Shown here one piece after another: positions 28,650 to 33,232 of a DNA stretch of 64,000 bases. Source of the stretch: Sanguibacter keddieii DSM 10542 (lineage in GTDB: Bacteria; Actinomycetota; Actinomycetes; Actinomycetales; Cellulomonadaceae); the NCBI RefSeq assembly GCF_000024925.1, contig NC_013521.1, forward strand, positions 186,001 to 250,000, given 5' to 3'. The notes beneath the pieces are model-generated. The model saw only the letters and a list, made by a program, of their open reading frames with translations. It ran no database searches and was not told the DNA's origin. How positions within the stretch are numbered: the stretch's first letter is position 1; each line of letters starts with the position of its first letter. A program made the position numbers and the translations under genes.

Positions 28650-29990
28650 CTACGGCCTCGTCCTTCGCACCAGCACCAGGTAGGCGACCGCCGACACCGC
28701 GGCGACCGCGGCCAGCGTGAGGCTCGCGGCTCCCGCCCCCCAGTGGTCCAGGGCCAGGCCGAGGGCGAGCGGGCCGACGACGGCACCGAGGTCGCCGGTC
28801 GAGCGGAAGATGCCCATCGCGGCGCCCTGGCGGCCCGGTGCGGCGACGTCGGCGAGGACGACGCCGGGGACGATGCCGCCGACCGCTGCCCCGACGCCGG
28901 CGGTCACGACGACCGCGCCGAAGAGCAGCGGGGTGTCGGCCACGGGGTACAGGGCGATCGCCACCGCGGCGACGAGCATGCCGGGGACGAGGAGCCGTCG
29001 TCGCCAGCCCGCGTCGAGCAGACGCGCGAGCAGGGGCAGCAGCCCGAGCGAGACGAGGGTGATGACGCCGATCGACAGGCCCAGCTGGGTCGAGCTCATG
29101 CCGACGCGGTCGCCGAGGATCGGCACGAGGGACTGCTCGCCCCCGAACCGGATGACGAACACCGCGAAGCCGACGACGTTGAGCCCCACGAACGCCGCCA
29201 GGTCCGTCGCGACCCGCCGCCGCGCACCTGCTCCGGCAGCCGAGCCGTCGAGTTCGTGAGTTTCGAGCGAGTTCGGTACGTGGGAGGCACGAACTCGCTC
29301 TGAAGTCACGAACTCGGCGTCGGCCTCCACCGGAGCCAGACCCGGAGCCGGCGCCGCCTTCCCCCAGAACTCCTGGTCGGGCTGCAGCAGCGTCCACACG
29401 AGGCAGGCCACCGCCGGCACCGCCGCCGCGAAGAACACGGCGTGCAGCCCCCACCTGTCCAGCACCAGCCCGCCGACCACCGGCCCCATGGCCCCGCCCG
29501 CCAGCTGCACGGCCTGCGCCGTGGCGAGCACCGTCCCGCGGGCGTCGGCGGGAGCCCGCGCGGTCACGACGGCCAGACCGATGGTGACCACCGACCCGCC
29601 GAGCACCCCCGCGAAGAACCGCGCCACGAGCAGCACGGGCAGCGTCGGTGCGAAGGCCGTCAGCACGGTCACGACCACCAGGCCGACGAGCGCTCCCAGC
29701 AGCAGGCGCCGCGGCCCGAACCTGTCGGCCAGCAGCCCGGCGGGGATGTTGACGAGCAGCCGCCCGACGCCGAAGGCCGCGACGATCGCGCCGAGCAGGA
29801 ACGACGACACCGAGAACATGTCGCCGTAGCGGGGGAGGGCGGGGACGATCGCACCCCAGGTGATCTGCGCGCTGGCCACGAGGCAGCACGCGATGACGAT
29901 CTGCCGCCGCAGCCGGGCCGGCAGCGGCTTCCGCGCAGGCCGCGCGGGTCGCGCCTCCTCGGCGACCGCTGCCGCACCCCGGCCGCTCAC
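28650..29990 (-). CDS. Major facilitator superfamily transporter with palindromic insertion in the central loop
   Basis: A 446-residue transporter with twelve predicted spans. The first half has the MFS motif A region LLVNIPAGLLADRFGPRRLL and FFAGVLGGSVVTIGL; the second half repeats the fold from FVGLNVVGFAVFVIRFGG. The central cytoplasmic loop (EADAEFVTSERVRASHVPNS and following) is encoded by a 68-nt nested palindrome, described separately. GTG 29990 overlaps the stop of the flavin monooxygenase gene (GTGA), placing it last in the Rut-like operon. Position suggests import of the heterocyclic substrate or export of a product; drug efflux is the alternative. Confidence 0.82.
   Translation of the reverse strand: MSGRGAAAVAEEARPARPARKPLPARLRRQIVIACCLVASAQITWGAIVPALPRYGDMFSVSSFLLGAIVAAFGVGRLLVNIPAGLLADRFGPRRLLLGALVGLVVVTVLTAFAPTLPVLLVARFFAGVLGGSVVTIGLAVVTARAPADARGTVLATAQAVQLAGGAMGPVVGGLVLDRWGLHAVFFAAAVPAVACLVWTLLQPDQEFWGKAAPAPGLAPVEADAEFVTSERVRASHVPNSLETHELDGSAAGAGARRRVATDLAAFVGLNVVGFAVFVIRFGGEQSLVPILGDRVGMSSTQLGLSIGVITLVSLGLLPLLARLLDAGWRRRLLVPGMLVAAVAIALYPVADTPLLFGAVVVTAGVGAAVGGIVPGVVLADVAAPGRQGAAMGIFRSTGDLGAVVGPLALGLALDHWGAGAASLTLAAVAAVSAVAYLVLVRRTRP
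29249..29316. repeat. 68-nt nested palindrome inside the MFS gene
   Basis: Two 11-bp inverted repeats share one centre. The outer arms are CGAGTTCGTGA (29249-29259) and TCACGAACTCG (29306-29316); the inner arms are GAGCGAGTTCG (29265-29275) and CGAACTCGCTC (29290-29300). The element is in frame and encodes the central loop of the transporter. Confidence 0.85.
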
Positions 29991-31321
29991 AGCAGGTTCT
30001 CGCGCAGCGTCGTGCCCGCGTACCTTTCGCTGACGAGCCCGCGGCGGCGCAGCTCCGGGACGAGCAGGTCGGTGACCTCGTAGAGCGACGACGGCATGGA
30101 CTGCGGGTTGCAGATCATGAACCCGCCGTTGGAGCCGGTCGCGAGGAACTGCTCCTCGAGCTCGTCGGCCACCTGCTCGGCGGTCCCGGCGATGGTCTGC
30201 TCGTAGCCGGTCGCGTACTTCCAGCCCTCCTCGAAGAACTCGGTCCGCGTGAGCACGCCGTCGTCGCCGCGGCGCGCGATGAGCCGCTGCACGAACCCGG
30301 ACTGGGTGGCCTGCGCGGCCGCGATCTGCTCGGCGACCTCCGCGAGCGTGAACTTCTCGGGCAGCACGGAGAAGTCGAAGCCCGAGTTGTACGACAGGTA
30401 TGCCCCGACGGCGTCGTCGTCCATGAGCATCGACGCCATCTCCTCCTTGCGGGCGGCAGCCTCGGCGGCCGTCCGCCCGAGCACCACCTGCGTGGCCCAG
30501 AGGATGCCGACGTCCTCGGGCCGGCGCCCGGCAGCCGTCAGGGCGTCGTCGAGAGCGGCCCTGTGCTTCACCTGCGAGGGCAGGTGCCCGCCGAGGCCGA
30601 AGACGACGTCGGCGAAGGATGCGCTCGCGGCGATGCCGCGCGGGGACGCGCCGGCCTGCACGAGCACGGGGTGGCCCTGCGGGCTCGGCACGGAGGGCAG
30701 CGGGCCGGCGACGTCGAAGAACTCGCCGTGGTGGTCCACGCGGTGCACCTTGGACGGGTCGGCGAACTGCCCGGTGCTGCGGTCGCGGAGGATCGCGTCG
30801 GGCTCGACGGAGTCCCACAGCGCCTTGCAGACGGACACGAACTCCTCCATGCGCTCGTAGCGCTGGTCGTGGTCCATGAGCCCGTCGAAGCCGTAGTTCG
30901 CGGCGTCGGCCACACGCCCCGAGGCGACGACGTTGAAGGCCAGCCGGCCCTTCGTCACGTGGTCCAGGGAGTTGAGCAGCCGGGCCGTGTAGAAGGGGTG
31001 CATGTACGTCGAGGAGTAGGTCAGGCCGAAGCCGATGTGCTGCGTGGCCTGGGCCATCGCCGCGATGAAGGGGCTCATGTCCTGGCGGGGCCACTGGATG
31101 CCGTAGCGGATCGCGGCGTCCATCGACTGTTCCCAGGTGTCCGGGATCCCGGTGCCGTCGCCGAAGAACAGCATGTCGATGCCGCCGCGCTCAGCCGCGA
31201 CGGCCAGCTCGGTGAACAGGCCGACGTCCGGGTAGTCGGCGCCGACCCAGGAGCCGGGCGCGGCCCACTTGCCCTCGGTGTGCGTGAACGAGATGTCGAA
31301 GGCGAGCTTCATGGTGGTCAT
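29987..31321 (-). CDS. LLM-class flavin-dependent monooxygenase, NtaA/SnaA/DszA type
   Basis: A 444-residue bacterial-luciferase-like enzyme using reduced FMN and oxygen. It starts MTTMKLAFDISFTHTEGKWA and contains the family blocks DMLFFGDGTGIPDTW, YSSTYMHPFYTARLLNSLDH, KGRLAFNVVASGRVADAANY, HPVLVQAGASPRGIAASASF and FEEGWKYATGYEQTIAGTAE. Relatives open or desulfurise heterocycles and nitrilotriacetate. The start is one base into the stop of the hydrolase gene (TGATG); ATG 31312 is an alternative. Its reduced FMN probably comes from the reductase at 36501-37082. It differs clearly from the RutA-like enzyme of the same cluster, so two successive oxygenations are possible. Confidence 0.85.
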   Translation of the reverse strand: MTTMKLAFDISFTHTEGKWAAPGSWVGADYPDVGLFTELAVAAERGGIDMLFFGDGTGIPDTWEQSMDAAIRYGIQWPRQDMSPFIAAMAQATQHIGFGLTYSSTYMHPFYTARLLNSLDHVTKGRLAFNVVASGRVADAANYGFDGLMDHDQRYERMEEFVSVCKALWDSVEPDAILRDRSTGQFADPSKVHRVDHHGEFFDVAGPLPSVPSPQGHPVLVQAGASPRGIAASASFADVVFGLGGHLPSQVKHRAALDDALTAAGRRPEDVGILWATQVVLGRTAAEAAARKEEMASMLMDDDAVGAYLSYNSGFDFSVLPEKFTLAEVAEQIAAAQATQSGFVQRLIARRGDDGVLTRTEFFEEGWKYATGYEQTIAGTAEQVADELEEQFLATGSNGGFMICNPQSMPSSLYEVTDLLVPELRRRGLVSERYAGTTLRENLL

Positions 31322-32097
31322 CAGGGCCTCCCGGCGGGGATCGGCTCGGCGACGGCCACTGTCGAGGGCGACGGTGCTGTGGCGGACGGCGGTGCGGTGG
31401 GCTGAGCGGTGGACGGTGCGACGGGCTGTGGTGCGGGGGCTGCTGCGGCGTGGGCCCAGGCGGCCGCGACGGCTGCGGACGTCGCGACGACCGCGGCGTT
31501 CTCGGCGAGGACGGTGAGCGCGTGGGCGTGGGTCTGGGCGTCGTAGGCGGCGGTCGCGTCGGAGGTCATGACGGCGCGGAAGCCCAGCTGGAATGCGTCG
31601 CGGACGGTCCCGTCGACGCAGCACTCGCTGGTGAGGCCGGCGGCGACCACCCAGGTCACTCCGGACCCGCGGAGGTGGGCCTCGAGGCCTGTCCCGAGGA
31701 ACCCGGAGTAGCGGCGCTTGGGCACGACCGTCTCGCCGGGGAGCGGGGCGACCCCGAACCACTCGGCGCCCGGCGTGCCGACGACGCAGGGTTCCTCGGC
31801 CTCGGGCCAGGCCGCCGCGTCGAGCCCGCGCAGCCACAGCGAGGTACCCCACGGCTCGTCGGGGAGCTGCTCGAGAGCGACCCACACGACCGGCACCCCG
31901 GTCGCGCGGGCCTGGTCCACGAGCCACGCGGTGCGGGTCACCGCGGCGTCGACCGCGGCGAGACCGGCCTCGTCGAGCCACGGAAGGTAGGCGGGGTCGG
32001 CGAAGGACCGCTGGACGTCGACGACGACCAGCGCGGCCTCGGCGAGCGGACCGGGCAGCGGGCGGACGGTGCCGTCGACGCCCGTCAGGGTCGTCAC
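31321..32097 (-). CDS. Isochorismatase-like cysteine hydrolase (RutB-like)
   Basis: A 258-residue cysteine hydrolase. The catalytic triad is visible: aspartate in LVVVDVQRSF, lysine in VVPKRRYSGFLGT and cysteine in GLTSECCVDGTVRDAFQLGF. The RutB group of this family hydrolyses ureidoacrylate in the pyrimidine ring-opening pathway. The last 40 residues are an Ala/Pro/Ser/Thr-rich tail unlike the family and may be dispensable. GTG 32097 overlaps the stop of the RutA-like gene, and the gene's stop overlaps the next oxygenase, so all three are translationally coupled. A RutB-like role is inferred from this pairing; a nicotinamidase-type activity is the alternative. Confidence 0.78.
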   Translation of the reverse strand: MTTLTGVDGTVRPLPGPLAEAALVVVDVQRSFADPAYLPWLDEAGLAAVDAAVTRTAWLVDQARATGVPVVWVALEQLPDEPWGTSLWLRGLDAAAWPEAEEPCVVGTPGAEWFGVAPLPGETVVPKRRYSGFLGTGLEAHLRGSGVTWVVAAGLTSECCVDGTVRDAFQLGFRAVMTSDATAAYDAQTHAHALTVLAENAAVVATSAAVAAAWAHAAAAPAPQPVAPSTAQPTAPPSATAPSPSTVAVAEPIPAGRP

Positions 32098-33188
32098 GCG
32101 ACGCCCTCGAGCACGGCTGCCGGGCGCAGCAGGGGCAGGACGGTCTCGCCGAAGACGGGGAGGTCGGCGTGGTAGTCGGGGAAGATCATCATGAGCCCGT
32201 CGATGCCGGTCTCCTCGACGAGCTCGGAGATGCGCTCGGACACGGTCTCGGGGGAGCCGTGCACCACGGCGGTCTGGAAGGCCTCGTCCTCGGGGGCTGC
32301 GGCCGTCATGGACATCGCCTTGTCGAGCGGCAGGCCCCACGACGTCTTCATGTTGACGATGGCGTCGATGTCGGCGCCGCGCCCGTACTCGCGGCGCTTC
32401 GCCTCCGCCTCGGCGTCCGTCTCGCCGAGCACCACCGTGCACATCGAGTACGTCTTGATCGAGCGGCCGTTCGCGGCAGCCGCCTCCTTGACCTGGTCGG
32501 AGACCTTGCGCAGGCCGGGCAGGTCGTCGGCGGTGAGGAAGGACCCGTCGCAGTGCCGGGCCTGGAAGTCGACGCCGGCCGGGGAGCGGCCCGCGCTGAT
32601 GAGCGTCGGGCGCACCACGGGGTGCGGGCGGGACTGGCAGTCCTCGAGGTCGAAGAACTCCCCGTGGTGGGTCACGGAGTCCTCGGACCACAGACGCTCG
32701 AGGACGCTCGTCCACTCCTCGGTGTACCGGTAGCGGGCGGCGTGGTCGAGGGACTCGTCCCACAGGCCCATCTGCGAGAACTCCTGCGCGTACGCACCGA
32801 CCACGATGTTCATGCCGGCGCGACCGCCGCTGATCTGCTGCATGGTCGTGTACATCTTCGCGGCGATCGCGGGGTTGAACAGGTTGGTGTGGATGGTCGC
32901 CCAGATCTTCACGCGGCTCGTGGCCTCCGCGAGGCCCGACATCATCGACACGGACTCGAGGGTGCGGCCCCAGTGGTCTGTGGTGCCGCCGTAGCCGCGC
33001 CACTTGCCCATCGACATGATGAAGTCGAGGCCGGCCTCCTCCGCGAGGATCGCGGCCTTCCGGTTGTACTCGTAGGTGGCCTGCGGGTGGGGTGCGGTCT
33101 CGGACATGATCCAGCCGCCGTTGCCGATCGGCAGGAAGATGCCGAGCTCGGGGCCCGAGGTGCTGGTGGTGGCGTCGGTCGTCGTCAT
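32094..33188 (-). CDS. RutA-like flavin-dependent pyrimidine monooxygenase
   Basis: A 364-residue luciferase-fold enzyme. The opening LGIFLPIGNGGWIMSETAPH, the block RGYGGTTDHWGRTLESVSMM and SGLAEATSRVKIWATIHTNL, and QQISGGRAGMNIVVGAYAQE closely follow Escherichia coli RutA as I recall it, which opens the uracil ring with reduced FMN and oxygen. The pairing with a RutB-like hydrolase and a RutF-like reductase supports this. RutC, RutD, RutE and the RutG permease are not seen in the window. A ribosome site GAAGGA precedes ATG 33188. The real ring substrate may be uracil, thymine or another pyrimidine-like compound; alkanesulfonate monooxygenase (SsuD) is a less fitting alternative. Confidence 0.78.
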   Translation of the reverse strand: MTTTDATTSTSGPELGIFLPIGNGGWIMSETAPHPQATYEYNRKAAILAEEAGLDFIMSMGKWRGYGGTTDHWGRTLESVSMMSGLAEATSRVKIWATIHTNLFNPAIAAKMYTTMQQISGGRAGMNIVVGAYAQEFSQMGLWDESLDHAARYRYTEEWTSVLERLWSEDSVTHHGEFFDLEDCQSRPHPVVRPTLISAGRSPAGVDFQARHCDGSFLTADDLPGLRKVSDQVKEAAAANGRSIKTYSMCTVVLGETDAEAEAKRREYGRGADIDAIVNMKTSWGLPLDKAMSMTAAAPEDEAFQTAVVHGSPETVSERISELVEETGIDGLMMIFPDYHADLPVFGETVLPLLRPAAVLEGVA

Positions 33189-33232
33189 GATGGTCCTTCG
33201 TGGTGCGGTGTGGTCGTGCGGCAGGTGCGGGA

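Follow-up and report, generated by a model that had tools for sequence, protein, structure and literature searches.

A nested palindromic element within a transporter gene

The window analysed here is a stretch of 64,000 nucleotides of the Sanguibacter keddieii genome, which consists of one contig of 4,253,413 bp starting at dnaA. At the locus described, an MFS transporter gene carries a palindromic element in its reading frame (Table 1). The minus-strand frames beside this gene, at window positions 30000-33200, encode what we take to be luciferase-like flavin monooxygenases and an isochorismatase-type hydrolase. The element has the order CGAGTTCG-N11-CGAGTTCG-N14-CGAACTCG-N11-CGAACTCG, with two 8-bp boxes in each arm. 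The four arms named in the original prediction were found where it had placed them (CGAGTTCGTGA at 29249-29259, GAGCGAGTTCG at 29265-29275, CGAACTCGCTC at 29290-29300 and TCACGAACTCG at 29306-29316). They had been described as two separate inverted repeats; instead, they form one imperfect hairpin with arms at 29246-29275 and 29290-29319 (30 nt each, 87% complementary and 14 nt apart). Folding of the element as single-stranded DNA gave -31.6 kcal/mol, compared to a mean of -16.3 kcal/mol for shuffled sequences (z = -6.2), and none of 200 shuffles was equally stable. An RNA family was dropped as the identity of the element, since a scan of window positions 29000-29600 gave no match at E<=1 among 4227 Rfam families.

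Table 1. Features of the locus in the window, and the nuclease gene elsewhere in the S. keddieii genome.
Feature	Position	Strand	Basis or remark
MFS transporter gene carrying the element in frame, 446 aa, GTG start (our choice)	28650-29990	-	PF07690, E = 1.2e-45
Nested palindromic element, 68 bp	29249-29316	.	Boxes and spacers 8-11-8-14-8-11-8
Box 1, CGAGTTCG	29249-29256	+	Sequence read and array geometry
Box 2, CGAGTTCG, 19 bp from box 1	29268-29275	+	Sequence read and array geometry
Loop between arms, 14 nt	29276-29289	.	Folding and alignment of copies
Box 3, CGAACTCG, inverted box orientation	29290-29297	-	Sequence read and array geometry
Box 4, CGAACTCG, inverted box orientation, 19 bp from box 3	29309-29316	-	Sequence read and array geometry
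Single S. keddieii match to the nuclease gene family (E<=1e-40), 310 aa with the start used	Genome 3491364-3492293		Element 59 bp past the stop codon

The peptide encoded by the element begins at residue 226 of the transporter. The last hydrophobic stretch of the first half of the protein spans residues 188-196 and the first of the second half residues 268-277, so that, judged by hydropathy alone, the element lies in frame in the loop joining the two halves, as had been proposed. Six distant homologues were 24-27% identical to the S. keddieii protein. In the loop, where this alignment is unreliable, the S. keddieii protein showed a 25-residue gap relative to them just ahead of the element-encoded peptide, and two of the six had about 17 extra residues of their own near the loop. 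The closest relative was the transporter of S. inulinus, with an in-frame element at the same place (L221/L220). As this sole close relative already carries the element there, an orthologue without it was not found, and four other genomes of the genus gave no match to the protein at E<=1e-30.

A family of dispersed elements

A BLAST search of the genome with an 86-base segment identified ten more copies of similar length, 11 in total, in keeping with the prediction that the element is a dispersed repeat. With a covariance model built from 25 copies from five genomes, the 4.25 Mb of S. keddieii yielded 11 full-length copies at 62-88 bits, the next candidate scoring 20 bits. A strict four-box pattern, allowing at most two mismatches, fitted all 11 loci, and a genome-wide count of the four-box pattern gave 11, compared to 0 for a reversed control. 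The hairpin at 29249-29316 is therefore not due to chance, and a single copy or chance was dropped as an explanation. At loci L003, L009, L010, L011, L013 and L014 the 19-bp unit of box and spacer was repeated once more on one or both sides. The elements of S. keddieii end in CGAG...CTCG or nearly so, and those of other genomes in different words. When positions 1-27 and 42-68 were treated as fixed pairs, 89.3% of cells were standard pairs (81.7% in shuffles), and the covariation score was 0.235, compared to 0.119 in shuffles (0/500). Changes at both positions were seen in 13 pairs, a number that 25 of 500 shuffles reached, and the further pair types numbered 25, which 23 of 500 reached.

The pattern CGANNTCG-N11-CGANNTCG-N14-CGANNTCG-N11-CGANNTCG, with up to three mismatches, was present in 14 of the 16 single-contig genomes of the family at 2-58 copies each, and the reversed control gave none in any of the 16. 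The two pattern-negative genomes, G126 and G180, still gave matches to the covariance model, and their box words may therefore differ. At E<=0.001 this model found elements in 153 of 221 family genomes and 18 of 25 genera; its filters are strict and miss some, G065 being negative although one of its loci (L329) has elements flanking the nuclease gene described below on both sides. With up to two mismatches, the pattern was detected in 26 of the 396 genomes of the order; 12 of these belong to the family and 14 to three other families (f3, f6 and f13), with up to 95 copies per genome. The CGANNTCG box pattern is its own reverse complement, so the pattern does not test orientation, and outside the family at least two of the listed hits were direct rather than inverted arrays (the first of G283 and the single one of G357). 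No nuclease gene was seen in the 1.5-kb flanks of loci L339-L346, which come from the three other families.

The copy in the transporter gene is thus one copy of the family, probably retained because it is open in the frame of the gene and sited in the loop between the halves; it may have been inserted there or have arisen together with the loop.

A predicted nuclease gene associated with the elements

One homologous gene sits between close pairs of elements in genomes G004 and G091, and a gene of the same family adjoins an element in S. keddieii and others; in S. keddieii the element is downstream only. Eight members were aligned, the others being 39-47% identical to the S. keddieii protein. 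Five proteins were scanned for domains. The N-terminal half matched the AbiEi models of PADLOC in all five (4e-10 to 2e-15). Pfam matches were weak and below the curated cut-offs, with MTES_1575 or DUF559 in the C-terminal part of four and AbiEi_4 in one, and NCBIfam gave no match for these proteins. The columns E199, D230, E241, D243 and K247 were invariant in 30 of 30 proteins; these nuclease-type residues are presumed to be catalytic, as in the PD-(D/E)XK superfamily. The gene is therefore predicted to encode an AbiEi-like DNA-binding domain joined to a PD-(D/E)XK nuclease. A relative of solved structure was not accepted, as the one chain found, at E = 0.28, was unconvincing.

The gene-family alignment was searched in 221 genomes, with ten candidates scored per genome, and 172 genomes matched at E<=1e-40. 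Gene (E<=1e-60) and element occurred together in 132 of the 221 genomes, the gene only in 23, the element only in 21 and neither in 45 (odds ratio 12.3, P = 1.6e-14, kinship ignored). The draft genome of S. inulinus gave no gene match at E<=1e-40, despite its elements. Carriage of the nuclease by plasmids, phages or viruses was dropped as a possibility: searches of 72,556 plasmid and 50,697 phage records gave no tblastn match at E<=1e-10, and none of 128 pattern-matched stretches of IMG/VR encodes a relative of the nuclease.

An apparent second copy of the gene unit in G004 proved to be an overlap of the contig's own ends. The end of the contig (3519300-3521501) repeats a stretch near its start (30000-33200) with 99.8% identity over 2206 bases (L253/L254), and the end copy of the nuclease gene has frame disruptions. 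The element counts for G004 consequently hold duplicates, with 19 distinct copies among the 21 extracted.

Elements bracket the gene and diverge with it

We examined the 30 best protein-selected loci, one per genome, from the 172 matching genomes. At 20 of them the gene had elements to either side, at 6 to one side only (one of these a weak case of 21.7 bits) and at 4 to neither; with the seven seed loci excluded, the numbers were 15, 4 and 4 of 23. A scan of the flanks that made no use of box words (periods of 14-26; L315 left out and the right flank of L336 too short) placed 48 of 57 flanks, from 29 loci, above the largest of 57 composition-shuffle scores, with both sides positive at 21 of the 29 loci, one side at 6 and none at 2. 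The period was 19 in 42 of the 48 positive flanks, 20 in 2 and 15 in 4, the last being G+C-rich simple sequence. Loci without CGANNTCG carried nested 19-bp repeats with other words, on both sides in L327, L334 and L338 and on the right side in L332, the left flank of which holds related sequence. Elements were 81% alike at the same locus and 59% alike at different loci, and protein identity correlated with element identity (Mantel r = 0.61, 0/5000; 17 loci including 5 seeds, kinship ignored).

Common chromosomal neighbours were found at 11 of the 30 loci (for example L310, L314, L319 and L328). In the 55 pairs that these 11 loci form, the flanks were 83-85% identical and the gene 70%, the gene falling below both flanks in all 55. 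Relative to the common neighbours, the gene is oriented one way at eight loci and inverted at three. The common place and the low identity of the gene suggest that the unit is inherited in place and evolves fast. Judging from these alignments, the unit also appears able to flip between the inverted arrays beside it, or else to be replaced. Three more groups of loci have flanking DNA in common (L315/L324/L326/L330, L331/L337 and L334/L336/L338), and the gene therefore seems to stay put in other lineages too.

We consider it probable, from these comparisons of sequence, that the palindrome in the window is a copy of a dispersed family that serves as the DNA partner of the AbiEi-wHTH and predicted PD-(D/E)XK nuclease.

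Location and turnover of the copies

In S. keddieii, 10 of the 11 copies are located between genes and 1 within a gene. Among 95 copies extracted from five genomes (including two duplicates from the contig overlap of G004, with genes called by a simple caller of our own), 7 overlapped a predicted gene, 36 lay in convergent, 34 in tandem and 9 in divergent gaps, and 9 were at an edge. Control gene pairs from the same loci, which include operon neighbours, were convergent in 23, tandem in 128 and divergent in 25 cases, giving an odds ratio of 5.6 for convergent placement.

S. inulinus has 18 elements, and 4 of the 11 S. keddieii sites were occupied at the orthologous place there: the transporter site, L224/L209, L225/L213 and L228/L207. 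For seven of the 14 remaining S. inulinus sites, the two flanks were found near each other in S. keddieii, where the element was absent from all seven, which indicates that copies come and go. The other seven had one flank each in S. keddieii and were outside the occupancy count. Of the seven remaining S. keddieii sites, one had its two flanks in S. inulinus at too great a distance for comparison, and the others had one or none there. In S. inulinus, 4 of the 18 elements are within 150 bases of a contig start (L203 at 78, L211 at 40, L215 at 69 and L220 at 62), as if the hairpin had broken the assembly.

These data bear on four other explanations of the elements. The arrays could be operators, with the AbiEi-type protein repressing its own gene and the dispersed copies forming the operators of a regulon. 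AbiEi proteins do autoregulate through multiple inverted repeats, according to passages of PMC7319586. However, the copies favour convergent gaps, which should lack promoters: of the 79 placed intergenic copies, 36 are in such gaps, compared to 23 of 176 control pairs. Divergent gaps have few copies, 9 of the 79, compared to 25 of 176 (the control including operon neighbours). Arrays also stand downstream of the nuclease gene, and S. keddieii has no element at any of the seven S. inulinus sites that can be compared. We therefore regard operators as unlikely.

A strong hairpin that is frequent in convergent gaps would also be expected of ordinary bidirectional terminators, which might have come to resemble each other by convergence or local duplication. 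That account is highly improbable, given that the exact 68-bp spacing recurs in many genomes and is never seen in the reversed control, that the box variants are genome-wide, and that one copy lies inside an open gene. In addition, no T-run followed the arms of the 11 S. keddieii copies when inspected by eye, and the spacers of G098 pair no better within than between copies.

The dispersal of the elements, with occupied and empty sites, is shared with miniature inverted-repeat transposable elements (MITEs), here of an insertion sequence not found in this work, with the nuclease gene carried along between two such elements as a passenger. At the seven pairs of empty and occupied sites the flanks were too diverged for alignment of the junctions, so that target-site duplications give no reading for or against MITEs. 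A passenger gene is difficult to reconcile with bracketing at 20 of 30 loci chosen by protein, or with co-divergence of gene and elements, also where the box word differs, and we find MITEs very unlikely.

Finally, all 11 S. keddieii copies are within about 1 Mb of dnaA, and those of G004 and G091 are similarly clustered. Such clustering would suit sites that anchor a chromosome-organising protein close to the replication origin. The S. keddieii copies all fall within 47% of the origin-terminus half around dnaA (P = 0.0025), the 19 distinct fetched copies of G004 within 37% (0/100000 simulations; 0.0005 after thinning), and the 24 copies of G091 cluster around dnaA (0/20000). No such bias was seen in G098, however (P = 0.34, for the 23 of 38 sites listed), and it was weak in G090 (P = 0.085). 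The S. inulinus sites map up to 1.6 Mb (both flanks) or 2.0 Mb (one flank) from dnaA in S. keddieii coordinates, and sites are often not common to the two species. Anchoring sites are thus very improbable, and clustering at the origin was dropped as the main story on these grounds.

Box words differ between genomes

CGAGTTCG accounts for 32 of 44 boxes in S. keddieii and CGAGATCG for 60 of 72 in S. inulinus. At the four shared sites the word of the species itself was found in 12 of 16 boxes in S. keddieii and 14 of 16 in S. inulinus, and in the transporter gene in 4 of 4 and 3 of 4, respectively. Element identity was 72% at the four shared sites, 77% between non-orthologous elements of the two species and 82-83% within a genome. 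Such a genome-wide change of box word between close species would be expected if the protein maintained or spread the boxes it recognises.

Within-genome identity was highest in the boxes (Table 2). This is partly built in, because the extraction pattern fixes six of the eight bases of a box, and the fair figure is therefore the identity at the two free bases. It exceeded that of the spacers in S. keddieii, S. inulinus and G098, and was not above it in G004 and G091. The box and spacer data indicate that the spacing is the constant feature. In S. inulinus, G004 and G091 the spacers of one copy paired with each other better than with those of other copies, which was not so in S. keddieii (0.75 within copies, 0.76 between) or G098 (0.53 and 0.59). 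Genomes thus differ: some have a uniform box word and others a mixture, and some keep the hairpin pairing.

Table 2. Identity between copies within a genome.
Genome	Copies	Boxes	Spacers	Loop	Two free box bases
S. keddieii	11	0.94	0.77	0.65	0.82
S. inulinus	18	0.95	0.80	0.54	0.85
G098	23 extracted	0.98	0.66	0.59	0.97
G091	22	0.87	0.58	0.61	0.58
G004	21	0.82	0.54	0.51	0.47

Several box words coexist in G004 and G091, which have three gene matches (one a duplicate) and one, respectively. The boxes of G091, 88 in all, include CGAGTTCG 30 times, CGAGATCG 19 times and CGAGCTCG 17 times.

A possible mechanism

The boxes may be bound by the AbiEi-like N-terminal domain; passages of PMC7319586 report binding of two and four inverted repeats by AbiEi and Rv2827c. 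The palindrome itself, or a target, could then be nicked or cut by the nuclease domain, and repair of the break or strand transfer would copy the element elsewhere, as proposed for REP elements and RAYTs.

A wider reading, which we hold tentatively and rate at close to an even chance, is that this is a second, independently evolved system of palindrome and cognate nuclease, parallel to REP/RAYT. An AbiEi-wHTH PD-(D/E)XK enzyme would read four-box 68-bp arrays and spread or renew them genome-wide, so that the copies track its changing specificity, and the arrays bracketing the gene would also let it invert in place. Elements and gene are common in the Sanguibacter family, and elements of the same spacing are present in at least three other families of the order.

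Among the papers listed by a literature search that covered a minor part of the subscription journals, none appeared to describe this pairing of element and nuclease, and no paper paired DUF559 with AbiEi. For the terms searched, PMC12306157 yielded one table line on three other Actinomycetota, and PMC3733652 none of six actinobacterial and REP terms. The elements are an apparently undescribed class of repeat in actinobacterial genomes, and the association suggests a testable role for a nuclease family only weakly recognised by the libraries used. The switch of box word across the genome between two close species, also at orthologous sites, offers a direct test of whether a dispersed sequence follows the protein that reads it.

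Comparison with known systems

Rickettsia palindromic elements are palindromic repeats that lie in frame inside protein-coding genes. The palindrome in the window likewise lies in frame in such a gene, and these elements had been put forward as a model for it. They are a poor one, because only 1 of 11 copies in S. keddieii is coding (among the 95 copies from five genomes, 7 overlap predicted genes); moreover, a cognate gene is associated here, the comparison implying no relation in sequence. Vsr-like and DUF559-type endonucleases, some of them homing, combine a nuclease-type motif with a DNA-recognition domain. The partner protein does the same, but its gene is associated with dispersed palindromes. 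The antitoxin AbiEi of type IV toxin-antitoxin systems resembles the N-terminal domain, as the PADLOC matches in five of five proteins indicate, and known AbiEi proteins bind two or four inverted repeats (passages of PMC7319586). The domain studied here differs in being joined to a nuclease-like domain, and the repeats differ in flanking the gene on both sides and recurring elsewhere in the genome.

REP elements and RAYTs are the best known bacterial palindromes kept with a cognate enzyme, and their function is still open. The original prediction of a mobile REP-like palindrome holds in that the S. keddieii element is a short dispersed palindrome, 10 of its 11 copies being intergenic, and is in frame in a protein loop. 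It was not borne out for the REP-associated tyrosine transposase, which had been named as a gene to look for: PF01797, the Y1 (HUH) transposase, gave no match at E<=1 in S. keddieii, the control being positive in 10 of 14 genomes, and REP with RAYT was dropped as the identity of the system. RAYTs are flanked by two inverted REPs, coevolve with them and evolve rapidly, according to passages of PMC2817692. Here, too, the cognate gene lies between two inverted copies at 20 of 30 loci (in S. keddieii an element stands on one side only), protein and palindrome co-diverge (Mantel r = 0.61 for 17 loci, kinship ignored), and the gene evolves faster than its neighbours.

The enzyme, by contrast, is unrelated, an AbiEi-wHTH domain with a predicted PD-(D/E)XK nuclease. 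The element is a 68-bp array of four boxes with a 19-bp period, and the base of its hairpin lacks a GTAG/GTGG (or CGTC) head, unlike the 20-40 bp palindrome with a GTAG-type head of REPs. It is present at 2-58 copies in 14 of 16 single-contig genomes, compared to usually more than 100 for REPs (PMC2817692). As both the enzyme and the head of the palindrome are different, the system looks like an independent counterpart of REP/RAYT, outside that family. A second such system, whose enzyme is unrelated and whose element is more rigid, would make it possible to ask which features the function requires: whether the copies have to bracket the gene, lie at gene ends, diverge quickly together with the protein and be inherited in place.
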